Assembly (NCBI GenBank): GCA_017642935.1
Contig: JAEPOK010000001.1
Coordinates: 1,054,001 to 1,118,000 of the forward strand
Origin: Hyphomicrobiales bacterium
GTDB taxonomy: Bacteria; Pseudomonadota; Alphaproteobacteria; Rhizobiales; MH13
DNA length: 64,000 bases
Direction: 5' to 3'
Below are positions 2,386-40,959 of this stretch, piece after piece (the first letter of the stretch is position 1; the number at the start of each line of letters is the position of its first letter). The notes beneath the pieces are model-generated. The model ran no database searches. It was not told where the DNA came from and was given only the letters and a program-made list of their open reading frames with translations. The translations under genes were made by a program, and so were the position numbers.

Positions 2386-4064
2386 CAGGTCGCGTCCTTA
2401 TCGATCAACAGTGCGTGCACATGTACCACAGGGCGTTTACCCCAGGCTTCGCGCACTTTGCCGCGCACTGATTTGCGCAAGCTCTCCGACACGCTGTCGA
2501 CATCACGCCGCCGGGCCATGGGCAGCGCGCGCAGCGCTTGGCTTGTGGCGTTAAGGACGAAGCTGTCGGCGTCCTCATCATCGAGTTGATCGGGCAGACC
2601 ATCGACGATCACTTCAATATCGCTCACCAGCTTACCTGCGCCCGATAGGCCGAGGGCGATGGTGATCACGCCGACCTCGGCCAGGGTGCGGCGCTCATAG
2701 ACGCCGCTGTCGCCTGGCAAGGTGAGCAGATTGCCGTCCTTGACGTAGAAGCCCTGCTCAATTCCATCGACGATATCGGCACCATCGGCGCGGATCTCCA
2801 GAATGTCGCCATCATTGATGATGGTCACGCCATAACCGTGCTCTTTGGCAAGCTTGGCATGGGCGTTCATATGACGGGCCTCACCATGCACCGGCACAAT
2901 GGTTGTCGGTTTCAGCGCCGAATAGAGATGCACAAGCTCGCCGCGTCGCGGATGGCCAGAAACGTGGATGGGGGCGTCGGCATCCGTGATGATCTTGATG
3001 CCGGTAGCCGCCAGCTTGTTCATGATGCGCAGCACGCCGCGCTCATTGCCCGGGATGATGCGCGAGGAAAACACCACTGTGTCGCCACGCGTCAGCGAGA
3101 GATGCGGATGATCGTGTTCAGCGGTACGCGACAGAGCGGCGCGCTCCTCGCCCTGTGACCCGGTCAGCAGGATCAACGCCTTGTTGCGGGCGATCCGGTC
3201 AAAGCTGCGCATATCCTCAATCGGCGGCAGGTCGGTGAGGATGCCAAGATCAACGCCGACACCAATCACCCGTTGAAGCGCCCTGCCCGCGAGCACCACC
3301 GTGCGGCCAGCGTCGCGGGCGCCATCCAGAATGGATTTGATGCGCGCCATATTGGAGGAGAAGAGCGTCACGCAAACGCGCTGCTCGGCTTCCTTGATCA
3401 CTTTGGCGAGCGCCTTGCCGACTTCGGCTTCAGTTGGGCTTTCACCGTCGCGCATGGCGTTGGTGCTGTCGCCCATCACCGCATCGATAGGTCCGGCGTC
3501 GCGGAAAGCCTTGAAATCGGCCAAAGACGTCGGTTCGCCAATGATCGGCTCGGCGTCGAGTTTCCAATCGCCGGTGTGCACAACGCGGCGGTCGCCGGCC
3601 TCAATCATAAGCGAGTGGCTTTCCGGGATCGAGTGCGAAACCGGCACCGCCGTGATCGTGAAATCACCGACAGTGAACGGCGCGCGCGGCTCAAAGCGTT
3701 TGAAGTCGATGGCCTTGAAAACCTGATCAGACGGATTCTTGGCCTCCAGCAGCGCCTCGGCGAATTGGCTGATATAGACCGGTGCTTGCAAGTGCGGCCA
3801 CAGCGTCAACAGCGCACCGATGTGATCCTCGTGCCCATGGGTGATGATGATCCCATCCAGCTTATCGCGGCGCGTCTCGATGTAGCTGATGTCGGGCGTG
3901 ATCAGATCGATGCCCGGCAGATCCGGCCCGGCGAACGACACGCCGCAATCGACCATGATGAAGCGGCGACCTTTGCCAGACCCATAGCCGTAAAGGGCCA
4001 AATTCATGCCGATTTCGCCCACGCCGCCCAGCGGCATGAATGTGAAGGAGGGAGCTTTGCTCAT
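2385..4064 (-). CDS. rnj: Ribonuclease J
   Basis: A 559-residue metallo-beta-lactamase/beta-CASP ribonuclease with 5'-exonuclease and endonuclease activity in RNA turnover and rRNA processing. The zinc motif HGHEDH is at residues 76-81. Further metal ligands sit in the PVSHSIPES and HTGDWKLD segments, and the beta-CASP domain ends with the SGHPRRGEL and PVHGE motifs. I chose the ATG at 4064 (MSKAPSFTFMPLGGVGEIGMN) because family members begin there. The frame stays open upstream to 4277, but that extension overlaps birA and looks like shadow sequence. Alphaproteobacteria use RNase J alongside RNase E. Confidence 0.93.
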   Translation of the reverse strand: MSKAPSFTFMPLGGVGEIGMNLALYGYGSGKGRRFIMVDCGVSFAGPDLPGIDLITPDISYIETRRDKLDGIIITHGHEDHIGALLTLWPHLQAPVYISQFAEALLEAKNPSDQVFKAIDFKRFEPRAPFTVGDFTITAVPVSHSIPESHSLMIEAGDRRVVHTGDWKLDAEPIIGEPTSLADFKAFRDAGPIDAVMGDSTNAMRDGESPTEAEVGKALAKVIKEAEQRVCVTLFSSNMARIKSILDGARDAGRTVVLAGRALQRVIGVGVDLGILTDLPPIEDMRSFDRIARNKALILLTGSQGEERAALSRTAEHDHPHLSLTRGDTVVFSSRIIPGNERGVLRIMNKLAATGIKIITDADAPIHVSGHPRRGELVHLYSALKPTTIVPVHGEARHMNAHAKLAKEHGYGVTIINDGDILEIRADGADIVDGIEQGFYVKDGNLLTLPGDSGVYERRTLAEVGVITIALGLSGAGKLVSDIEVIVDGLPDQLDDEDADSFVLNATSQALRALPMARRRDVDSVSESLRKSVRGKVREAWGKRPVVHVHALLIDKDAT

Positions 4065-21394: not shown

Positions 21395-21471
21395 TGGCGC
21401 GGCTGACGGGGCTCGAACCCGCGACCTCCGGCGTGACAGGCCGGCACTCTAACCAACTGAGCTACAGCCGC
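21395..21471 (-). tRNA. tRNA-Asp (anticodon GTC)
   Basis: The minus-strand sequence folds into a full cloverleaf of 77 bases. It has acceptor GCGGCTG/CAGCCGC, D-arm GCTCAGTTGG..., anticodon loop CTGTCAC with GTC, T-loop TTCGAGC and an encoded 3' CCA. The gene lies upstream of nuoA on the same strand. Confidence 0.95.
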
Positions 21472-22927: not shown

Positions 22928-25339
22928 TCATTTGCTGCGGGCAAGCGCGATGAGAGCCTGTCCCAGGGAGAGGCCGCCATCATTGCAGGGAACGGCTTGA
23001 TGGGAAAGCACCTGGAGCCCGGCGCGCCGGAGCTTGCCTTCGATCATCTCGCTAAGCAGGCGGTTGAGAAAAACGCCGCCGGAAAACGCAACCGTTTGCA
23101 GGCCCCGGTTCTTGGCCAGTGTCACCGTGGTCGCCGCCACGGCCTCGGCCAAGCCTGCGTGAAAACGCCACGCCATGACTGCCGGGTCGGTTCCCTTGGC
23201 TCTATCGCGCAGTGCCGCCTGCCAAAGGCCGGTGTGACCCAATAGCTGCGAATCGGTGTTGATGTTTTCGCCATAGGTTTGGACGGCGATGGGGTATGGC
23301 GTTTGCTGTTCACTTGCCCGGGTGGCTAGCGCCTCTGACGCGAGCGCTTCCACGGCCATGGCCGCCTGACCTTCAAACCCAACACGTTTCGCATGGAGCC
23401 CGAGAAGCGCCGCAAAGGCATCAAACAGCCGACCGGCGGACGACGCCAGCGGCGCGTTCAAACCCTTCTCGATCATGCCCACCAGCGTCTTCACCGAGGA
23501 TGGGTCGGCGCCGCTCTCAAGAGGATCGATACAGGCCGCATGGAGATGGGCGACCAAGTTGCGCCAAGGCTCTTTGGCCGCACGCTCGCCGCCCGGCATG
23601 GCGACCGCTGGCAGGCCTGCGACCCTCGTCGCGGTTCGATAGTCGGCAACAAGGAACTCTCCACCCCACAGGCCGCCGTCAGGTCCAAGACCCAACCCAT
23701 CCAGCGCGATGCCAAGGACTGGCTGCGTGTCAAGCGGGACCCTGTTCTCGCCAAGCGCCGAGGCAATGTGGGCGTGGTGGTGATCGGTGGTTTTGACCGG
23801 AATCCCAAGGTCAGCGGCTTTGCTGAGGCCGGTCTGCGTGGACAAATAGTCAGGATGGGCATCGACAGCGATGGCGTCCGGTTCAACGTCAAAAAGTTGC
23901 TCAAAGAGCGCAATCATCTGGCGATAAGCGCCGGCCGCCAAGGGATGGTCGAGATCGCCGCAGTGCGGTGAGAGCACGACGCCGGCGGGCGTCGTCAGCG
24001 CGAACGTGTTTTTCAGCTCGCTGCCCATCGCCAGGATCCTGCGATTCTGCGGGAAACCGGGCGGATAGGGCAGCGGCGCTGGCGCATACCCCCGCGCCCG
24101 CCGGATGATCCGGAAAGCTCCACGCTCGACCCGGCCCACACTGTCATCGACCCGGTTCACGATATCCCGATTGTGCATCAAAAAAGCATCGGCGATGCCG
24201 CAAAGCCGGTCGCGCGCTTCCTGATTGTCGATAGCCTGCGGCTCATCGCTGGCATTGCCCGAGGTCATGACCAACGGGCCGCTGAAGGCGTCGAGCAGCA
24301 GGTGATGCAATGGCGTGTAGGCGAGCATAATGCCGATCGTTGGCTGACCCATTGCCACGTTTTTGGCCAGCAATTTGCCCTTGGGTTTCAGCAAAACGAT
24401 GGGCGCAGCGGAACTTGCTAGGGCTTCGGCTTCAAGTTCGTTGACCGATGCAAAGCTTCTCGCCATGTCGAGGTCACGCACCATCACGGCCAGCGGTTTG
24501 GAATCGCGGCGTTTGCGCGCGCGCAGGCGATCCACGGCCTCTGCGTTGGCGGCATCGCAGCTGAGGTGAAAGCCGCCCAGCCCTTTGATCGCGACAATCT
24601 CGCCTGCCTTCAGGCGTGTCGCGATATGCTCGATCGGGGTGTCGGTGGGGTGGTGTGTGCCATCGGCGTACTCGACCCAGCAATGTGGCCCACAATTTGG
24701 GCATGCGATCGGCTGAGCGTGGAACCGTCGGTCGGCGGGATCGGCATACTCCGCTGCGCAGGCCTCACACATTTCGAAGGGTGCCATGGAGGTCGTGGCG
24801 CGATCATAGGGCACCGATCTGACGATCGTCAGGCGCGGGCCGCAATGGGTGCAATTGGTGAAGGGGTAGCCAGACCGTCTGGTCGGTTTGTCGCGACTAA
24901 GGGGCTGTTTGTCGCGACTAAGGGGCTGTTTGTCGCGACCAATGGGCCAAAAGTCGCGACTAACTGGGCGATAGTCGCGACTTTCTGCCAGGCATTCTGG
25001 ACATGTCGCGGCATCGGGAACAATACCCGTGGCGGTGATGCCGTCAGCGCTGGCAACGATTGATAAATCGCTGGGAAATGTCTCGGGCAGCCAGGGACTT
25101 GCCTCCACCGCATCGATCCGCGCCAGCTTTGGTGCTTCCTCGCGCAGCCGCGCATGGAAGATTTCGATCGCCTCGCGCTCACCAGCGACGGTGATCAGGA
25201 CGCCGTCGCTGTCGTTGCGCACTGTTCCAACCAACCCCAGACCGCAAGCCAGCCGCCACACATACGGGCGAAACCCAACGCCCTGCACAAGGCCCCTCAC
25301 CCGGATGCGCTCGGCGGCGAAGGATGAGCGCACGTCCAT
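22928..25339 (-). CDS. hypF: Carbamoyltransferase HypF with an unusual heptad-repeat insertion
   Basis: An 803-residue enzyme that makes the carbamoyl group, later dehydrated by HypE to the cyanide ligand of the NiFe site. Domains in order: acylphosphatase (about 8-95, VRGLVQGVGFRPYVWRL), zinc-finger pairs (CPECL at 113-117, CTHCGPR, CEACAAEY, CPNCGP), YrdC-like (about 215-400) and Kae1-like carbamoyltransferase (HHAHIAS and VAFSGGVFLNRLL). Between the first CxxC and the YPFTNC motif, residues 120-154 hold five copies of a SRDxxPx heptad. Normal family members have only a short linker there. It overlaps the preceding activator gene by one base. Confidence 0.95.
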   Translation of the reverse strand: MDVRSSFAAERIRVRGLVQGVGFRPYVWRLACGLGLVGTVRNDSDGVLITVAGEREAIEIFHARLREEAPKLARIDAVEASPWLPETFPSDLSIVASADGITATGIVPDAATCPECLAESRDYRPVSRDFWPIGRDKQPLSRDKQPLSRDKPTRRSGYPFTNCTHCGPRLTIVRSVPYDRATTSMAPFEMCEACAAEYADPADRRFHAQPIACPNCGPHCWVEYADGTHHPTDTPIEHIATRLKAGEIVAIKGLGGFHLSCDAANAEAVDRLRARKRRDSKPLAVMVRDLDMARSFASVNELEAEALASSAAPIVLLKPKGKLLAKNVAMGQPTIGIMLAYTPLHHLLLDAFSGPLVMTSGNASDEPQAIDNQEARDRLCGIADAFLMHNRDIVNRVDDSVGRVERGAFRIIRRARGYAPAPLPYPPGFPQNRRILAMGSELKNTFALTTPAGVVLSPHCGDLDHPLAAGAYRQMIALFEQLFDVEPDAIAVDAHPDYLSTQTGLSKAADLGIPVKTTDHHHAHIASALGENRVPLDTQPVLGIALDGLGLGPDGGLWGGEFLVADYRTATRVAGLPAVAMPGGERAAKEPWRNLVAHLHAACIDPLESGADPSSVKTLVGMIEKGLNAPLASSAGRLFDAFAALLGLHAKRVGFEGQAAMAVEALASEALATRASEQQTPYPIAVQTYGENINTDSQLLGHTGLWQAALRDRAKGTDPAVMAWRFHAGLAEAVAATTVTLAKNRGLQTVAFSGGVFLNRLLSEMIEGKLRRAGLQVLSHQAVPCNDGGLSLGQALIALARSK
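24878..24982. repeat. Five 21-bp tandem repeats with GTCGCGAC palindrome, in frame in hypF
   Basis: GTCGCGAC occurs at 24890, 24911, 24932, 24953 and 24974, an exact 21-base period. The two leftmost complete units share TAAGGGGCTGTTT between palindromes; the others have diverged. In hypF the array encodes SRDYRPV, SRDFWPI, GRDKQPL, SRDKQPL, SRDKPTR. The period keeps the frame, and no stop arises in other frames either. There is no spacer diversity, so it is not a CRISPR array. Confidence 0.95.
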
Positions 25340-26799
25340 CAGAAGGCGCTGGCGGTTTCCCGCAACGTTGCGGGCGCGATGCCGTAGCGGTCTAGCTTTG
25401 CTCGCAGTCCCACCCGCGACAGGCCCAACTCACGAGCCGCGCGGCTTTTGTTCCAGCGATGGCGATCAAGCGTCTCGGAAAGGATGCGCGCTTCCAACGC
25501 TTCGATGCGCTCTTTGAGGCTACCCTCGTCAGCGCTCATGAATGAATGGGCAATTTCGGCGTTTGGCAGTTCTGGCGTTTCCATCGCCGTTTCTTGGGCC
25601 AGCCGGCTTACCAGGCGCGGCGAAAGTGCCTCCGAATCAATGGCGGATTCAGGCTTGGCCATAACGACCATGTGTTTGATTTCATTGTGAAGCTCGCGCA
25701 CATTGCCGGGCCACTCATAGGCTTCCAAGGCGTCCATTGTGGTTTGCGAGAAGCCCGCCAGCGACTTGCCGAAATCCTCCTCGCATTGCTTCAGGAAAGC
25801 GTTGGCGAGCACCGGAATGTCCATCACCCGTTCGCGCAGCGCCGGTAGCGCCATGGTGACGGTCGTCAGGCGGTAGTAAAGATCCTCGCGAAACCGTCCG
25901 GCTTTCACATCTTCTTCCAAATCACGATTGGTGGCGGCGATGACCCGCACATCCACACGCTCGGTTTCCTGGCCGCCAAGCTTACGAACCTCTCCCTCTT
26001 GCAGCACACGCAGGAGCTTAACCTGAAATGCCGGTGAGATCTCGCCGATCTCATCCAAGAAGATCGTGCCACCATCGGCGCGCGCAAACATGCCTTCATG
26101 GTCATTGAGAGCGCCGGTAAACGCCCCGCGCACATGGCCGAACAATTCGCTTTCCAGCAGCTCATCAGGCAGCGCCGCGCAGTTCTCAACGACGATGGGT
26201 TTGTTCCAGCGCAGCGAGCGCGCGTGCAATGCTCGGGCGGCCAGTTCTTTGCCGGTACCCGATTCGCCCATCAAGAGAACGGGAATGTCGTAATGGGCGA
26301 TCTGCGCGAGCTTTTCGCACACATCGGCCATCGGGCTGTCGGCTGCCCGCACGATCCCGTCATCCTGCAATCCTTCTGGCGTTTTCGACCTTGCGGCAGC
26401 TTCCACCAGGTCCTGTGCCTTGGCGACGCTGGCCTTGCGGTCCGTATCATAATCGTCGAGCGCTTGAGACAGTGCCGACCGCACAGCCGTTCGCCTTAAG
26501 GGAAGCGCGAGTACTGGCTCGTTGTGCGATGAAGCGGTGGAAAAAGCTGTTCCCTGAGGCTGCACATAAAGGCAGATCACATCGGGCCAGCGAGCTGCGA
26601 TCAGCTGTCGGACCTTATCGGCCTGCGCGTGACGTCGGTCGATGACGACCACCCGCACCCATTCCTCATCGAGGCATGCCTCGGCCTCGTTCAGCGAGGC
26701 GGCCGTTGCGATGACCGCCAATCCAGCGGCAAGCGTCTGAAACCGGACATGCAGGGTGTCTTGGTTGCAGACAAACAGGACCAGCGCCGGATCGCTCAT
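25339..26799 (-). CDS. Sigma-54-dependent activator of the HupR/HoxA type
   Basis: A 486-residue NtrC-family regulator: receiver-like domain (about 1-120), AAA+ domain (about 150-390) and a Fis-type helix-turn-helix at the C-terminus ([20 protein letters not shown]). The AAA+ region has Walker A GESGTGKE, the sigma-54-contact loop GAFTGA and Walker [12 protein letters not shown]. In the receiver, the usual acidic pair is replaced by CNQD and the conserved Lys near the end is absent, while an Asp remains in VVVIDRR. Its place between hypX and hypF points to HupR/HoxA, activators of uptake-hydrogenase promoters. It overlaps hypX by 4 bases. Confidence 0.88.
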
Positions 26800-28484
26800 G
26801 ATGCTTCCTCAAGCGAACTGCCGGTGTTCCAGGAACCATTGATGTTGCGATGCTGCGCCAAGTTAAGCGGCGTTCGGGCCTTGGGCACTTTGCGCACGAA
26901 GTTGGAGCGGGCGATGTGGTAACTTGGGTCAAAGCCAAAGAAGTTTTGGCGCATTTTCGCCAGTTCTTCAGCGCGGTAGGCCGCAAGCGGTTTGTCGGCC
27001 TCATCATCGTTCCGGCAAGCGCTCTTCTCCTCGATCCTGTCAGACCACTTGCCACCTGCCAGTTGCTCGGCCCGGCGTGCGACGGCTTCGTGGAAGTCGG
27101 CGCGGGAACCGTCGATGACGAGATCGGCAAGTCCTAGACGCTCCGCCTCACGCGCGCCCATCGGCAAACGGTTGGAAGCGATGGCATCGGCCTGTTCAGG
27201 TGAGGTGAATCGCGGCAACGAATAGGTCCAAAACTCGGAGCCAAAAAGGTTGCCCATATCTTTGTAATGCGGGTTCAGCACGACACCTGCGCGCAGCCAA
27301 ACTTTATCGCAGGCACGGGCCAGAAAGACGCCGCCGGCGCCGGCGTTTCCACCCACAGCAGCGACCGTCAGCTTGTCGTCGGTGCGCAGCACCGCTTCGG
27401 CCAAATCATCCATGGCGTTGATGTTGTGCCAGGATTCATCACCGGGATTGGGTGCGGCCTCGATGAGGTTGAGATCCATGCCGTTGGACCAGACGTCTTG
27501 CCCACCTTCCAATACAAGAACCTTGGTCGGCCGGGCCAACGCCTTTTCGTAGGCGTAAAGCAGACGTTCGCAGGCCTGCGTCCCCATCGCGCCATTGAGA
27601 AAAGCGAAGCTCAAAAAGCCTATCGGACCGGCTTCGCGATAGGTGATGTCGTCATACCCCCGCACCTCGGGCAGATGGCTGGCATCAACGATTTGAGCGG
27701 CAGGCAACTTAAACGGATGGTTGCTGGCGGCGTTGCGCATGTGCCCGATCCAAACCGCCCCATCGCGGGTGGCGATTGCCACGGCTGACCCAGAACGCGC
27801 GATCATGGCACCCGGTCTACCGGTCAATCCGATGGCCCGGTGGCCGTCGTGCAGATGCACCATGCCGGTGCCTATGACCGATCGAACGCCTGGTGTGCCG
27901 TCCGATGCGTACAGCTTACGCAAAACATCATCGGTCGTGTCAGCCTGCCAGTCTATGGCGCGGTCACGTTGGCGCGGTGTGTGGCGGAACCGCTGTGTTT
28001 GGGGCAATTGTTGAGGCGGCAAGCGCTGACCGGCATCGATCACATCGATGGCCTCGAAGAAACAGGCGATGGCCGCCTCGGTCACTTCATGGCGATAGAG
28101 GCTGGCCTTGGTGGCCGCACGGATCGGGAAAGACCGCGTTGCCCAGATGGGGCCGGAATCATATTCGTCAGTGGCTTCGAACAGGGTGACGCCCCAATCG
28201 CGCGCACCGTCCAAAATCGCCCAGTCGAGCGCCGCTGGACCCGCATCACCAGGCGGACCGGGATGAAGCACCAAACAGAGATGGTGTCTCCAGACGGCTG
28301 CCGGGATTTTGCGCTTCAGATAGGGCGCAAGAATGAGATCGGGCGCGGCGAGCCGAACAGCCTCAAGGGTCGAGGCATCGCTGACATCAAACTCGATGGT
28401 CACCTCATGGCCAGCCTCGCGCAGCTCGACATAAAGCCGCTGCGAGAGCGCATTGAAGCCGTGAATGAGGAGCAGAATGCGCAT
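26796..28484 (-). CDS. hypX: Hydrogenase maturation factor HypX (HoxX)
   Basis: A 562-residue two-part enzyme. The N-terminal half resembles formyl-THF transferases (VLHPGPPGDAGPAALDWAILDG, WGVTLFEATDEYDSGPIW). The C-terminal half is enoyl-CoA hydratase/crotonase-like (VLEGGQDVWSNGMDLNLIE, GGNAGAGGVFLARACDKVWLR). In Cupriavidus necator HypX converts formyl groups from formyl-THF through formyl-CoA to CO, the carbonyl ligand of the NiFe site, under aerobic conditions. Its presence suggests this hydrogenase is made in air. It sits 3 bases after hypE. Confidence 0.92.
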   Translation of the reverse strand: MRILLLIHGFNALSQRLYVELREAGHEVTIEFDVSDASTLEAVRLAAPDLILAPYLKRKIPAAVWRHHLCLVLHPGPPGDAGPAALDWAILDGARDWGVTLFEATDEYDSGPIWATRSFPIRAATKASLYRHEVTEAAIACFFEAIDVIDAGQRLPPQQLPQTQRFRHTPRQRDRAIDWQADTTDDVLRKLYASDGTPGVRSVIGTGMVHLHDGHRAIGLTGRPGAMIARSGSAVAIATRDGAVWIGHMRNAASNHPFKLPAAQIVDASHLPEVRGYDDITYREAGPIGFLSFAFLNGAMGTQACERLLYAYEKALARPTKVLVLEGGQDVWSNGMDLNLIEAAPNPGDESWHNINAMDDLAEAVLRTDDKLTVAAVGGNAGAGGVFLARACDKVWLRAGVVLNPHYKDMGNLFGSEFWTYSLPRFTSPEQADAIASNRLPMGAREAERLGLADLVIDGSRADFHEAVARRAEQLAGGKWSDRIEEKSACRNDDEADKPLAAYRAEELAKMRQNFFGFDPSYHIARSNFVRKVPKARTPLNLAQHRNINGSWNTGSSLEEAS

Positions 28485-34837: not shown

Positions 34838-35335
34838 TCAGTTTCGCGCCTGGATGGCCGCGGTGTCATTGGGATCAGGCGCGCTGACCAGCGTTGGCGC
34901 CGCCACATTGCAGCCATCGGGAAACTCGAAGCGCGGCGGCTCCTGTGGTTCGCTCGCCAGGAATCCCCGAACATCGCGCAGATAGTCCGACCAGTCCTGC
35001 ATGCGCTGAATGGTGCCGAGCCAGCCACCGTCGCGGGTGAAGACCAGCGCTGGGAAGGCATTGAACCGGTACATGCGCTGCACCGCCATCTCGGTTTCAC
35101 GGTCGCGTGTCACGCCAACGCGGAAGGTATCAGGAAAGGCCGAGATCAACTCAGGCAACACGACCGCCACATCGGCAGTCTCGTCCAACCGATTGAAGTC
35201 ACCCGCAGCGAAGATCACCGCATCGCCTGGCGCTTTGACGAAGGCTTCGAGCGTGTCCGCCTTCAACTCGTCATAGCCATAATGGGTGATCAAGCGCTCG
35301 ATGAGCGGAGCGGCGACGGGTTCAGGTTGAATCAT
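34838..35335 (-). CDS. hupG: HupG, thioredoxin-like hydrogenase chaperone
   Basis: A 165-residue HyaE/HoxO/HupG-family protein. It has a thioredoxin fold pattern (VVLPELISAFPDTFRVGV, then YRFNAFPALVFTRDGGWLGTI) but no CxxC. Family members bind the Tat signal of the small subunit during folding. It overlaps hupF by 4 bases. Confidence 0.88.
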   Translation of the reverse strand: MIQPEPVAAPLIERLITHYGYDELKADTLEAFVKAPGDAVIFAAGDFNRLDETADVAVVLPELISAFPDTFRVGVTRDRETEMAVQRMYRFNAFPALVFTRDGGWLGTIQRMQDWSDYLRDVRGFLASEPQEPPRFEFPDGCNVAAPTLVSAPDPNDTAAIQARN

Positions 35336-35688
35336 GAGGCATCTCCAGAGGACGGATCGGTGGCATTCAGTTGCGCGCGCAAATGCGGTGGAAGCTCAGG
35401 CTCGCGCCCAGCAAGGTCGGGGAAGAGATCGTCAATGGATGCCGCATCGACTGGCCCGCCGCGCATCGCCAGTTCAACAGCTTGAAGCGCGTCGGCGATG
35501 GCATCGGCAATTGTCGCGTCAATCACCTCACGCGCAGCGCCTTGGTGGGTCAGCACCCAGGCGCCCTCGCCTTGCGGACCAACCAAGGCCAGGTCAATGG
35601 AGCGAACCGTACCCTCGCGTGTCACGCATGGCGCCATGAGTGCTTCAGTTTGATGGGCAAGGACCCGCATGGGGACGCCGACGCACAT
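35332..35688 (-). CDS. hupF: HupF, HypC-family chaperone
   Basis: A 118-residue HypC/HupF-family protein starting MCVGVPMRV, with the essential Cys2. It is longer than HypC because of the C-terminal helix and tail (VDAASIDDLFPDLAG). In R. leguminosarum HupF stabilises the large subunit and protects cofactor transfer when oxygen is present. It follows hupD by 3 bases. Confidence 0.92.
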   Translation of the reverse strand: MCVGVPMRVLAHQTEALMAPCVTREGTVRSIDLALVGPQGEGAWVLTHQGAAREVIDATIADAIADALQAVELAMRGGPVDAASIDDLFPDLAGREPELPPHLRAQLNATDPSSGDAS

Positions 35689-35691
35689 CGT

Positions 35692-36333
35692 TCAGGCCGA
35701 TTCTGGTGCGTGGGAGAAAACAATGCGCGGATCGCCGTGGCGGTAGGCTTCGCGTTCGTCAGGACGCTCGCCCTCATAGCGCGAGAGACGCATCTCTTCG
35801 CCGGCAAGCCCATGCTCTTCGGGCAGCGGTTCAGCACGACGCACAACGGATACACCAAGCTTTTCAAGCTCTTTGATGCCCATCGCGATGGCCGGTTCGA
35901 TCTGGCTACGCACCTCTGGTCGCAAACTGCCACCGAAGTCATCCAGCTCAACCGGTTGGACCCCGATCAGCACCATAGTGTGCGGCAGGTCGCCCATCAT
36001 CTCAGCCATCATGATGACTTCTTGAAACCCGGTCTGATGCAGGGAAACTTTGCGGCAACCCAGGAAGCGTGGGACGTCGTCGCCTTCCACGCGTTTCATC
36101 GTGCCCGGTTCCAGTCCGTAATCGATCGCGTCGAATACGATGAGCACATCGGCCTCGCGCACATGCTGGACAAGGTAGACGCCTTGTGTGCCGCCATCGA
36201 GGACACGGACGTTCTCCGGGACCTCGTAATGGCGATGAAACTCTTCCACGACCCGCACGCCAAAGCCTTCATCGGCCCAGAGCAGATTGCCGATGCCAAG
36301 CACGAGGATGCTGGGAGATTTGGCGTCTTCCAT
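35692..36333 (-). CDS. hupD: HupD, hydrogenase maturation endopeptidase
   Basis: A 213-residue nickel-dependent protease of the HyaD/HybD family that removes the C-terminal peptide of HupL after nickel insertion. The start ILVLGIGNLLWADEGFGVRV has the conserved Glu, and DAIDYG has the conserved Asp of the metal site; HQTGFQEV has the His. The ATG at 36333 is chosen by family alignment. It is the first gene of the long maturation operon, after a terminator. Confidence 0.93.
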   Translation of the reverse strand: MEDAKSPSILVLGIGNLLWADEGFGVRVVEEFHRHYEVPENVRVLDGGTQGVYLVQHVREADVLIVFDAIDYGLEPGTMKRVEGDDVPRFLGCRKVSLHQTGFQEVIMMAEMMGDLPHTMVLIGVQPVELDDFGGSLRPEVRSQIEPAIAMGIKELEKLGVSVVRRAEPLPEEHGLAGEEMRLSRYEGERPDEREAYRHGDPRIVFSHAPESA

Positions 36334-36620
36334 ACCGGTTTCCTGCCCTGCGTGCGCGGCTCTTGGTTGGCGGCGCTGCGCGTTGATCTGGAGAGTTGGA
36401 AGCAAGCTAACCAGCGCAGTGCCGGTGCTGGAAAGCGTATTACCACTTAACTAGACTTAGTGGGTATCTGGCCTGCCCTATCGATTATGATTACCGGCTA
36501 ATATTTGATATTTTTCAGAGCCTTAATACCTATCGTGCGCAGAAAAACGGCGTAATCCCGGTCAGGAAATACGCCGTTTTTACTTACGTGCTTTCGCGGG
36601 CAGGCTAGGCCCTTTTCCCA
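36334..36620. other. Gap between hupC and hupD
   Basis: These 287 bases hold the hupC terminator (36543-36581) and about 200 bases that must carry any promoter of the hupD-hypF unit. An imperfect inverted repeat (CCACT-N11-AGTGG on the minus strand) lies near 36452-36473. No clear sigma-54 or FNR box is visible; one half-site TTGAT occurs near 36506. Confidence 0.5.
36543..36581 (-). terminator. Strong Rho-independent terminator after hupC
   Basis: A perfect 12-bp inverted repeat (AAAAACGGCGTA and TACGCCGTTTTT) encloses a 15-base loop, with a U-rich 3' side on the minus strand. It lies 40 bases after the hupC stop, so the structural genes and the maturation genes form separate transcription units. 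Confidence 0.85.
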
Positions 36621-37370
36621 TCAGTCATTGCGCCCATCGCGGAAAGAGCGCCACCCGGAAATCATCGAAGAAACGATGGTTTGGCGGGACATGATGTCCT
36701 CGCGAATGGCCGCATAGACATGCACGATGATGAACACGATGATCAGCCACATCACCAGGTGATGATAGGTGTGGACGTTCTGGGAGTTGCCGAAGAGCGG
36801 CATGACCCAGGATGTGAAGACCTGGAATTGCCAGCTGTCCATCCCAGTGCCTTCGCCGTAGAGCGCCATGCCGGTGACGATCATGAAGATCGTGCCCCAG
36901 ACGAGCATGATGTGCATCGCGAGTACCGCTAACGGGTTATGACCCTCATACTTTTTCGGCTCTTTGGCGAGGAACAGATACCAGCGCAGCTCATGCACGA
37001 CGCCCATCCACCACTCACCGGACCAGACGCGCGGCAGGAAGATTTCGCGCGCATGGTGGTTGCCGACGAAGGCCCAATAGATGCGGCCGAGGAACGCGAT
37101 GGCGAGCACATAGCCCGCGGCAAAATGGGCAAAACGAATATAGCCCATGACGAAATGGTCGCTGGCTTCGCCGCCAATGCTCGGAAGCGGTGAGCCGATG
37201 AAATAGCCGGTCACGCAAAGCACCAGGATCGCGAGCGCATTGATCCAATGCCACAACCGGACCGGTGCCTCGTAGACGTAGACCGCCTGCTCGACATGGA
37301 CCGGATGGGCCGGATCATCGACATGATCAGGCACCGCGATCGTGTTGGGATCGATGTCGGTGGTGCTCAT
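36621..37370 (-). CDS. hupC: HupC, b-type cytochrome subunit of the hydrogenase
   Basis: A 249-residue diheme cytochrome b that anchors HupSL to the membrane and hands electrons to ubiquinone. Four membrane helices are visible with candidate heme His residues in RLWHWINAL, RFAHFAAGYV, AMHIMLVW and HTYHHLVMW. It starts within the last codons of the small gene before it (4-base overlap, ATGA), so the two are translationally coupled. It is followed by a terminator. Confidence 0.95.
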   Translation of the reverse strand: MSTTDIDPNTIAVPDHVDDPAHPVHVEQAVYVYEAPVRLWHWINALAILVLCVTGYFIGSPLPSIGGEASDHFVMGYIRFAHFAAGYVLAIAFLGRIYWAFVGNHHAREIFLPRVWSGEWWMGVVHELRWYLFLAKEPKKYEGHNPLAVLAMHIMLVWGTIFMIVTGMALYGEGTGMDSWQFQVFTSWVMPLFGNSQNVHTYHHLVMWLIIVFIIVHVYAAIREDIMSRQTIVSSMISGWRSFRDGRND

Positions 37371-37621
37371 GACGCATCACCAGATGGATCAAAGCGCCGT
37401 CGGCGTGCTGGTCGCAGCGCAAGATAGGCGGCAACGCCGATGGCAACCACCACGCCTAAGCCAAGGGCGGGAATGGTGATCGTTTGATACCAAGCTTGCG
37501 CGACCTCCTCCAAGTGGAGGTGATGACCTTGCCCGTGACCGGGATGGGCGAAGGCGTTGGTCAATGTGGCGACAAAGGCGGTTGGAGCAGCCAGTGTGCG
37601 AAGGATCATGGATTTGGTCAT
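37367..37621 (-). CDS. Small His-rich membrane protein between hupL and hupC
   Basis: An 84-residue protein I cannot place in a named family. Residues 1-25 look like a signal peptide ending AFA. The mature N-terminus reads HPGHGQGHHLH, five His within eleven residues. A membrane helix follows (about 48-69, IPALGLGVVVAIGVAAYLAL), then a basic tail (RPARRRR). The predicted topology is periplasmic metal-binding face, one membrane span, cytoplasmic tail. HPGHG after the signal peptide also begins HupE/UreJ nickel permeases, but those have about six helices; only one is here. It lies 12 bases after hupL and overlaps hupC. A role as an accessory subunit or in nickel handling is inference. Confidence 0.75.
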   Translation of the reverse strand: MTKSMILRTLAAPTAFVATLTNAFAHPGHGQGHHLHLEEVAQAWYQTITIPALGLGVVVAIGVAAYLALRPARRRRFDPSGDAS

Positions 37622-37633
37622 TGGGATGGTCTC

Positions 37634-39430
37634 CTATCGCACTTTGACGGTGGCTTTTTCTTCGCCGTCCGGCCCCATCACATGGGTCGAACAGGCAAGG
37701 CACGGATCGAAGGAATGGAGCGTGCGGAGGATTTCCACCGGCTCATCCTGGCGCTCCACGCGCGTGTTCATCAGCGCTGCTTCAAACGCGCCGATATTGC
37801 CTTCGCTGTCGCGCGGGGTGCCGTTCCAGGTCGTCGGCACAACGCACTGGTAATTGTCGATCTTGGTGTCCTTGATCTTGATCCAGTGGCCTAGCGCACC
37901 GCGCGGCGCCTCTGTGAAGCCAACGCCCTGCGCCTCGGCGGGCCAGGTTGATGGGTCCCAATTGGTCACGTTGGCGGTGTTCTCATCGCCATTGCGGATA
38001 TTGGTCATCATCTTATCGAAGAAGTAGCGCATCTTATGCGAAGCCCAGGAGGCTTCCAGACCACGCGCAGCCGTGCGTCCAAGGGTCGAGAACAACGCCG
38101 AGACCGGCACATCGAGGGCCGATAGGACCTGGTCGACAGGTTCCTTGAACTCCGGATTGCCCTGCGCGTAGCCAATGATGTAGCGCGACAGGGGTCCCAC
38201 CTCCATCACATGGCCTTTCCAGCGCGGCGCCTTGATCCAGGAGTATTTCGCGCTCTCATCGATGCGTTCGATGTTGGTGCGTGTGCCGACAAGGTTTGGC
38301 CCAAGCTCGTAGTTTGGCTCGGTAACCCCGTCCCAAGGATGCAGGCCCACGCTTTCATCGGCGTAGCTGTACCAGGAGTGCGGCACAAACTCCTGGATTT
38401 CCTCGGTGTCGCGCAGATCCACCTCATGAATGGTCGATAGATCGCCATTGATGATAGCGCCGCGCGGCATCATCAGATTGCCCGCTGAGAAGTCATTGGC
38501 GACATCAGGAATATCACCGTAGCTCAGCACATTTTGGCTGGAGATCCCGCCGCCATAGAGCCAGTCCTTGTAGAAACCGGCGATGGCCAGAAGGTCAGGC
38601 ACATAGACATTGTCGATGAACTCGATCGTCCGATCGATGAGCTGAGAAACCCGTCCAAGGTTTTCCATGTTGAGCGCGCCGACCGAGCCGGTGCCGTCGA
38701 TGTTGATCGCGCACGGTACGCCACCGACAAGCCAGTTGGGGTGCGGATCCTTGCCGCCAAAGATCGCGCGGATGGCGGAGATGTCCTTCTGGAAATCGAG
38801 TGCTTCCAGATAGTGCGTAACTGCCATCAGATCGGCTTCCGGTGGAAGCTTGTAGGCCGGATTGGTCCAATAGCCGTTCCGGAACGGACCGAGCTGACCG
38901 GACTCCACAAATGCCCGCAGCCGATTTTGCGTGTCGCGGAAGTAGCCGGGCGAGGATTTGGCATGGCTTGGCGAGATACGCTGCTGAAGGCGCGACGTCG
39001 CCCGCGGATCAGCATTAAGCGCATTGACCGGGTTCACCCAGTCCAGCGCATGCAGATGATAAAAATGGACCAAATGGTCATGCGCCTGCAGCGCAAGCTG
39101 CATGATGTTGCGGATCGAATTGGCGTTTTCCGGAATTGTGATGCCAAGGGCATCTTCCACAGCGCGTACGGAGGTAAGCGCATGGGTGCCGGTGCAAACA
39201 CCGCAGATCCGCTGGGTGAAAGCCCAGGCATCACGCGGGTCGCGACCTTTCAAGATCACTTCCAGCCCGCGCCACATGGTTCCGGTGGATACCGCGTTGC
39301 GGATGATGTTGTCCTCATCGATGTTCACCTCGCAGCGCATGTGCCCTTCGATCCGGGTGACCGGATCGACGACCACGCGGGCGCCGGAATCGTCAATGTT
39401 GAAGCCGTTCGGCGTTGTGAAAGCGCTCAT
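37634..39430 (-). CDS. hupL: Uptake [NiFe]-hydrogenase large subunit
   Basis: A 598-residue catalytic subunit that oxidises H2 in the periplasm. The N-terminal active-site Cys pair is in [11 protein letters not shown]; the C-terminal pair is in DPCLACSTH, followed by a 15-residue tail (VMGPDGEEK...) that HupD removes after the His. The protein has no signal of its own and should travel with HupS through the Tat system. It overlaps hupS by 4 bases. Confidence 0.97.
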
Positions 39431-40536
39431 TGATCCTGCCCCTCCTGTGCGGCTGGTTGGGCGGTTGATGGGCCGGATGACCGGGCACGTTTGACGGCGC
39501 TGGCCGCCGCATGGACGGCGGTTGCGGCGCCAACAACGCCAGCAGCTGCCATGCCGACCTGATCGGCGTTGGCTTCAATGCCAAATTGCTGAATGTCGGT
39601 GAGACGGTCGTAGAACGATCCATTGTCCCAAAAGCCGTCTTCGGAGCAGCCGATGCAGCCGTGGCCGGCCTGGATCGGGAAAGTCAGGCCGCCGTTCCAA
39701 CGCACCGTTGAACAGGCGTTGTAGGTCGTCGGTCCTTTGCAGCCCATCTTGTAGAGGCAGTAGCCTTGGCGCGCCGCGTCATCATCCCAGGCTTCGACAA
39801 ATTGCCCGGCGTCAAAGTGCGGGCGGCGGTAGCATTTGTCGTGGACCCGCTGCGAGTAGAACATTTTTGGCCTGCCCTGGCGGTCAAGCTCAGGGAAGCG
39901 ATCAAAGGTGACCATGTAGGTGATGATGGCCGTCATCACCTCGGCGATTGGCGGGCAGCCTGGCACTTTAATCAAAGGCTTGTCGGTGATGACCTGGTGC
40001 ACCGGTGTGGCGCGCGTTGGGTTCGGACGGGCTGCTTGCACGCAACCCCAGGAGGCGCAGGAGCCCCAAGAGATGACCGCTTTGGCGTGTTCCGTGGCGT
40101 GGCGCAGCTGATCGACAAAGGGCTTGCCGCCAACGATGCAGTACATGCCATCTTCGTTAAGCGGCGGGTTGCCCTCAACAGCGACGATGTAATTGCCGCG
40201 ATGCTCCTCAATCACCTCATCGATGATCGCTTCGGCCTGTGTGCCGGCGGACGCCATGATCGTGTCGTCATAATCCATCGAGATCATCGAAAGGACGACA
40301 TCCTTGGCCAGCGGGTGCGCCGATCGAATGAAACTTTCAGAACAACAGGTGCATTCAAGACCGTGCAACCAGAGCACCGGCAGCCGCGGCTTGGTCTCCA
40401 TGGCGTTGGCGATTTGCGGCACGAAAGATGGCCCAAGCCCCAGCCCCGCCGCCGTCAGCGAACAGAACTTCAGGAAGGATCGGCGAGATATGCCCTGCCG
40501 ACGCATCACATCGTAAAAGGTTTCAAGATTGGCCAT
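39427..40536 (-). CDS. hupS: Uptake [NiFe]-hydrogenase small subunit, O2-tolerant type
   Basis: A 369-residue Fe-S subunit. The twin-arginine signal (SRRSFLK, Arg18-Arg19) ends at IANA (residue 45). Counting the mature chain from Met46, cysteines fall at 17, 19, 20, 115, 120 and 149, that is [16 protein letters not shown] and VPGC. Cys19 and Cys120 are the two extra ligands of the [4Fe-3S] proximal cluster of O2-tolerant group 1d enzymes such as E. coli Hyd-1. The medial and distal cluster ligands lie between about 235 and 310. A C-terminal hydrophobic helix (about 330-350) anchors it in the membrane. Confidence 0.97.
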
Positions 40537-40883: not shown

Positions 40884-40959
40884 TGGTGGGCGGTGAGGGG
40901 CTCGAACCCCCGACCCTCTCGGTGTAAACGAGATGCTCTCCCAGCTGAGCTAACCGCCC
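40884..40959 (-). tRNA. tRNA-Val (anticodon TAC)
   Basis: A 76-base cloverleaf on the minus strand with acceptor GGGCGGT/ACCGCCC, anticodon loop TTTACAC containing TAC, T-loop TTCGAGC and encoded CCA. Confidence 0.95.

Follow-up and report, generated by a model that had tools for sequence, protein, structure and literature searches.

A histidine-rich, one-helix protein encoded between hupL and hupC: a possible reduced HupE-type metal-binding accessory protein

The stretch of 64,000 nucleotides analysed here (the window), from a Hyphomicrobiales bacterium, contains a [NiFe]-hydrogenase operon in which a small open reading frame lies between the genes for the large subunit and the b-type cytochrome subunit, which raises the questions of whether this frame is a gene, to what its product is related and what that product would do beside a hydrogenase. 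The operon lies on the minus strand and consists of hupS for the small subunit (39427-40536, TIGR00391 above cut-off), hupL (37634-39430, PF00374, E 4.9e-226), the small ORF (37367-37621), hupC (36621-37370, TIGR02125 above cut-off), the maturation protease gene hupD (35692-36405, TIGR00140 above cut-off) and a hupF/hypC-type chaperone gene (35332-35688, TIGR00074 above cut-off), hupD and hupF being adjacent with no hupE in between. In the whole of the window genome, which is 98.8% complete, there is no match to HupE/UreJ (PF04955) and none above cut-off to DUF6732, and there is one NicO match and one CbiM match, both above cut-off. The window HupS contains CTCCSE, which we take to be a mark of oxygen-tolerant enzymes. 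The hydrogenase cluster, from hypF at 22928 to hupS at 40536, is flanked by genes for tRNA-Asp (21395-21471) and tRNA-Val (40884-40959) and may be an island; at 25339-28484 it encodes a sigma-54 activator, and an ORF there that combines formyl-transferase and enoyl-CoA-hydratase domains is presumably HypX-like.

A preliminary description of the small ORF had given it 84 residues, a signal peptide, a mature start of HPGHGQGHHLH, one membrane helix and a 4-base overlap with hupC, all of which is borne out by the sequence and by a structural model. From its ATG start the frame encodes, on the minus strand, a signal peptide in codons 1-25 (37547-37621) that ends in AFA and is judged from the sequence to be cleaved before His26, the proposed metal site HPGHGQGHHLH in codons 26-36 (37514-37546), and a membrane helix in codons 50-68 (37418-37474), the most hydrophobic 19 residues (mean hydropathy 2.2 over residues 25-43 of the mature protein), followed by an Arg-rich tail. 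The AlphaFold2 model, which is of moderate confidence (mean pLDDT 71.8, pTM 0.35), has helices at 3-25, 37-49 and 51-69 and a short one at 71-74, with the histidines in the loop 26-36 after the signal helix.

Twelve bases separate the hupL stop from the small ORF, and a ribosome-binding-like AGGAGA (37630-37635, minus strand) overlaps the hupL stop codon 8 bases 5' of the ATG; at the other end the stop overlaps the hupC start as ATGA (37367-37370, minus strand), and the small protein is probably co-translated with hupC. Scans for promoters and terminators over 36300-37700 gave values close to those of shuffles. The frame has the highest codon score of the six frames of the stretch, at 0.06 per codon, with the plus-strand frame in the same register near it at 0.008. 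In a control of 11 window genes the out-of-frame windows reached at most -0.14, and the in-frame scores, which are those of the training genes themselves and not of held-out ones, started from -0.04 with a mean of 0.31. The GC3 of the small ORF is 0.58 as against 0.66-0.78 in hupS, hupL, hupC and hupD. Overall it is supported that the small ORF is coding, though the codon signal is weak.

To place the ORF, the content of the hupL-hupC slot was surveyed at 137 distinct HupL loci, which are the nearest relatives rather than a random sample or all hydrogenases. These were drawn from genome contigs (587 confirmed, of which the best 80 were used), from 199 relatives (30 loci, with matches in 35), from the class of a Thiodiazotropha genome (369 genomes, 12 with a match, 12 loci) and from the family of a Marivivens genome (295 genomes, 32 with a match, 30 loci), with a further class search of 385 genomes, seven of them with a HupL match, contributing no loci. 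The 152 loci so gathered (L021-L172) were reduced by six without a hupC match (L057 and L126-L130) and nine with an identical HupL; three loci (L022, L150 and L032) were assigned by hand on reading, and at 18 loci the gap was inspected in three frames in case a small protein had been overlooked. At one of the loci set aside, L057 from Mangrovicoccus ximenensis, the start of a small slot protein survives, after which the frame diverges and no hupC was found; the locus is either a broken operon or an assembly fault.

The slot holds a small one-helix protein of 56-84 residues at 35 loci, the window included, a full HupE at 30 and nothing recognised at 72. It had been suggested that homologues be sought at the same position in other hydrogenase operons, and proteins of the same design are indeed found there, across genera; an absence of homologues was to have counted against the protein and did not occur across genera, whilst three congeners of the window genome have no HupL match at E <= 1e-150. 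The order hupS-hupL-hupC, assumed in the preliminary description to be the standard one, is not the only one, given the 30 loci with a full HupE in between and two annotated plasmid records, of Rhizobium sp. T1473 and Fuscovulum ytuae, with a HupE/UreJ family protein in the slot. In a plasmid record of Paracoccus denitrificans the slot carries no annotation. Because 35 of the 137 loci fill the slot with the small design, and only 11 of 3941 ORFs of 50-110 residues elsewhere in the surveyed loci carry the N-terminal motif A[HS]?Hx1-3H, the design recurs in the hupL-hupC slot beyond chance. The small proteins were called by a defined histidine pattern, so that conservation of His1 and His4 among them is not independent evidence.

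On a HupL tree (FastTree, local support only) the small and the full HupE inserts are interdigitated, with ten changes for the small kind, seven of them forced by starred branches, and 16 for the full kind, 11 of them forced. One well-supported set of 46 rows has 43 empty slots, three full inserts and no small one. By identity the window HupL is nearest, at 81%, to that of L022, a gammaproteobacterial symbiont that also has a small slot protein; outside the Rhodobacterales there are three groups with small proteins, namely L021/L022/L025/L132, L027 and the window.

Across the 35 small proteins the anatomy is consistent. A second histidine pair, H-x3-6-H, is present in 33 of them, compared with a mean of 6.4 and a maximum of 14 in 1000 shuffles, and is absent only from the window protein and L150, both of which have HLH clusters instead (in L150 the protein reads HEVGAPHLHAD). 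In 31 of the 35 the tail after the helix has more basic than acidic residues, as would suit a topology with the N-terminus outside and the C-terminus inside. At 14 of the 35 loci the small gene shares 4 bases with an in-frame hupC start, as in the window, and at a further nine such a start lies 3 bases past the stop of the small gene. With dN/dS of 0.09-0.43 in 15 of 16 pairs and pN/pS of 0.30 in the saturated pair, the small slot proteins are under purifying selection in lineages other than that of the window, whose gene is in no pair.

These values bear on the suggestion that the window ORF is the decaying remnant of a hupE and makes nothing useful. Remnants of this type do exist, as at L105, L106 and L108 only a short HupE-like start follows hupL where their congener L104 has a full HupE, an apparent loss of HupE within one genus, and the weak codon score and GC3 of the window ORF and the want of any close relative found would suit such a history. 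However, the low dN/dS in other lineages, the recurrence of the same design and length in 35 loci and the intact state of the ribosome-binding-like site, frame and ATGA overlap in the window all argue for a working gene, and we regard decay as very improbable.

The likeness of HPGHG to the start of HupE nickel permeases, which had been pointed out for the window protein, holds for the set as a whole, through the shared slot, a profile relation for 14 of the 35 members and HX5DH in five, but not for the window protein's own sequence, the homology of which is not significant. A profile of slot HupE, applied to every ORF of 50 or more residues in 110 loci, found 17 slot HupE, one non-slot HupE (L080) and one truncated at the end of a contig (L032), the only further matches at E <= 1e-3 being four small slot proteins, L067, L059, L047 and L074 (4.1e-6 to 1.8e-4), to whose scores the signal peptide adds. 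Comparison of mature-only profiles with HupE gave P 5.7e-7 for ten members and P 4.3e-6 over 29 columns for 14. The alignment of this 14-member subgroup takes in the mature N-terminus of HupE and its first helix, begins at His1 and lays the H-x6-H of the small proteins on the HX5DH of HupE, a motif found in 28 of 29 slot HupE and in the five small proteins that keep the aspartate (L067, L069, L074, L152 and L166). L067 even exceeds the Pfam cut-off for HupE (28.2 versus 23 bits, at profile positions 2-48 of 179).

Single members were also compared with HupE in mature-only shuffle tests over the first 45 residues, where none of the 300 shuffles scored as well as L047, L067 or L074 and a single one as well as L069; with the first five residues removed, L067 and L069 beat all 300, L047 all but 2 and L074 all but 8, and the other members, which are most of the set, were weaker or at chance. 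The H-x3-H group gave P 5.7e-5 against HupE over 18 columns, and the Thiodiazotropha group showed no tie to HupE in the profile comparison; no shuffle out of 300 scored as well as L065 or L075 with the Thiodiazotropha-group profile. The scores of the 14 members were higher against slot HupE (1.4 to 24.4, n=29) than against 14 non-slot HupE taken from 13 small-protein genomes (best 10.6), the two ranges overlapping.

A profile of 20 small proteins (A1) recovered the slot gene in all 20 genomes together with ten further places, one of which falls on the beginning of a gene for full HupE (G215:C112, E 0.0039). At E <= 1e-15 PF04955 is found elsewhere in the genome in 13 of 20 small-protein genomes and in four of 15 empty-slot genomes, a difference with a Fisher p of 0.041 that ignores kinship and depends on empty-slot genomes chosen by hand, with L057 and 14 full-HupE genomes left out. 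Near the 14 non-slot HupE genes a motif search, run without a positive control, found no urease or related genes, and Pfam named no nickel enzyme among ten ORFs at three of the non-slot HupE loci.

HupE is not the only family in question. At E <= 0.01, 14 of the 35 small proteins match DUF6732 (PF20506) and three match HupE; these counts speak against naming the set simply HupE, and the nearest named family may therefore be DUF6732. The DUF6732 cut-off is exceeded by L060 (28.6 versus 27 bits) and by two of three further A1 matches that were scanned, seven of the ten further places having been read. Away from hup, Rhodobacterales genomes encode proteins of the same design, with a signal peptide, AHxGH and one helix (L192-L196 and L198, near position 3000), and both of those scanned exceed the DUF6732 cut-off. 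The name DUF6732 is absent from the literature searched.

It could be, then, that the slot proteins were recruited from a family of small, free-standing proteins of the Rhodobacterales, DUF6732 and its kin, the function of which they would share, and that their likeness to HupE is older or partly convergent, a reading which gains from the DUF6732 matches and from the same-design proteins that A1 finds away from hup in several of the 20 genomes. The alignment of the 14-member subgroup with HupE is nevertheless the longer one (29 columns as against 16, P 4.3e-6 as against 4.5e-5) and includes the correspondence in spacing of HX6H and HX5DH, the slot itself is a HupE slot, and three small-protein groups lie outside the Rhodobacterales, so that we think recruitment unlikely.

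The window protein belongs to the small-protein set by its slot, its architecture and its N-terminal motif only. At E <= 1 a Pfam search with it returned no row for HupE or DUF6732. Of 1000 plain shuffles, 65 to 927 did as well as the window protein against five profiles (92.7% for HupE), a range that rose to 119 to 997 of 1000 in shuffles with HPGH retained; mature-only against HupE, the window protein was equalled by 279 of 300 shuffles with the first five residues and 97 of 300 without them. An initial likeness to several relatives on plain shuffles vanished with shuffles that keep the helix block, under which one of 34 relatives (L154) stood at 4 of 1000, a value that is not significant after 34 tests. 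The HPXXGXDH signature is absent, and there is one helix after the signal helix where HupE has about six.

Wider searches with the window protein gave no confirmed relative in viral contigs and no plasmid match at E <= 1. In its own genome and 60 relatives, a match of some kind at E <= 1 was present in 48 of the 61 genomes, the best one apart from the protein itself (E 8.5e-5) lying inside a 712-residue frame in a 58%-complete genome without a HupL match; in the parts of that frame inspected there was no signal peptide followed by A-H-x-G-H. A match to TrbC/VirB2 pilin (PF04956) was rejected (17.9 versus 27.9 bits, with no conjugation gene among the scanned neighbours), as was one to LpqS, which fell below its cut-off. 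Within the set the window protein would count as diverged, lacking H-x3-6-H and carrying a denser N-terminal histidine cluster.

Three functions had been put forward, a membrane linker, a periplasmic nickel-binding factor and an extra subunit of the complex, and as far as the sequences allow a judgement we lean towards a metal-binding accessory protein. We put it at close to an even chance that the small slot proteins are reduced one-helix proteins of HupE type with such a role, metal binding and partner being what we infer. Such a protein would be a HupE permease cut down to its signal peptide, its free N-terminal histidine with the further periplasmic histidines, and its first helix. After cleavage the periplasmic N-terminus could chelate Ni2+ or a similar ion with His1 and the histidines next to it, whilst the helix would anchor the metal site at the membrane, next to HupC or to a separate nickel transporter for which the protein might capture or buffer the metal; cleavage and orientation are likewise predicted. 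It is unlikely that a one-helix slot protein is a transporter by itself, as a single helix cannot carry out transport unaided in the manner of HupE. Against a periplasmic metal binder stands the fact that nickel enters HupL in the cytoplasm, so that such a binder needs a transporter; the window genome, with no PF04955 match, does have the NicO and CbiM matches. A metal-presenting role is favoured because the periplasmic histidine tip is kept, the helix-1 site is kept in part, and N-terminal histidine chelators are known. In the accessible text of PMC12537917 an N-terminal histidine exposed after a signal peptide is a metal chelator in several protein classes, among them domains fused to HupE/UreJ-2.

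Together with recruitment from DUF6732 and its kin, the main rival to a metal-presenting accessory protein is an accessory subunit of HupSLC, the helix of which would pack on HupC and stabilise the complex or its contact with HupSL, the histidines being secondary or on the side of electron transfer. The gene does stand among structural genes, with a hupC start overlapping or 3 bases away at the loci counted above, and its product has a helix, mostly with a basic tail, and a single topology throughout. A subunit of this kind is, though, dispensed with at the 72 loci that have no insert at all, a full HupE can occupy the slot instead, and the conserved part is the histidine pattern and not the helix, the near-invariant columns of the A2 profile being A25, H26 and H46; we hold a subunit role to be unlikely.

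A more far-reaching form of the metal-presenting reading is that a nickel permease has repeatedly been reduced under selection, in the same slot, to its metal tip and first helix and now serves as a metal-presenting or assembly partner of HupSLC, with the window protein as an extreme form whose metal site lies wholly in the N-terminal histidine cluster. This we consider doubtful, if conceivable. Were it true, selection would have preserved, in several lineages and in one and the same operon slot, a metal transporter pared down to one metal-binding helix. The gene is small and easily deleted, and may serve as a probe of nickel handling or of complex assembly beside HupC, and the slot proteins give a context to DUF6732-like proteins. 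No description of a one-helix protein between hupL and hupC was found in the portion of the literature covered, most subscription papers lying outside the search.

Among known systems, CbiN of the CbiMNQO cobalt transporter offers a parallel, as in the accessible part of PMC7689651 it is a small membrane partner thought to act at an extracytoplasmic metal pocket; it differs in having two helices and in working with CbiM, and the likeness is one of description. The Anglerase-HupE/UreJ-2 proteins also have an N-terminal histidine after a signal peptide, proposed as a metal ligand at the membrane (PMC12537917, from the sections available), but there it belongs to a permease-fused folded domain some 175 residues long, whereas the window protein, with its 84 residues, has neither domain nor permease. 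DUF6732 proteins are similarly small, with a signal peptide, an A-H-x-G-H start and one helix, yet the typical members (the six cited above) lie away from hup and have another histidine spacing and, in most of them, an acidic tail. Finally, HupE/UreJ, the distribution of which is treated in PMC2667541 and PMC4771312, has six helices with HPXXGXDH in helix 1, according to the available text of PMC7689651. The small slot proteins differ from it in having one helix instead of six and resemble it in the hupL-hupC slot that they share, in the signal peptide and the mature histidine start, and, for part of the set, in HX5DH; the window protein itself has the HupE/UreJ trait of a predicted signal peptide followed by a mature histidine start, in a hydrogenase operon.
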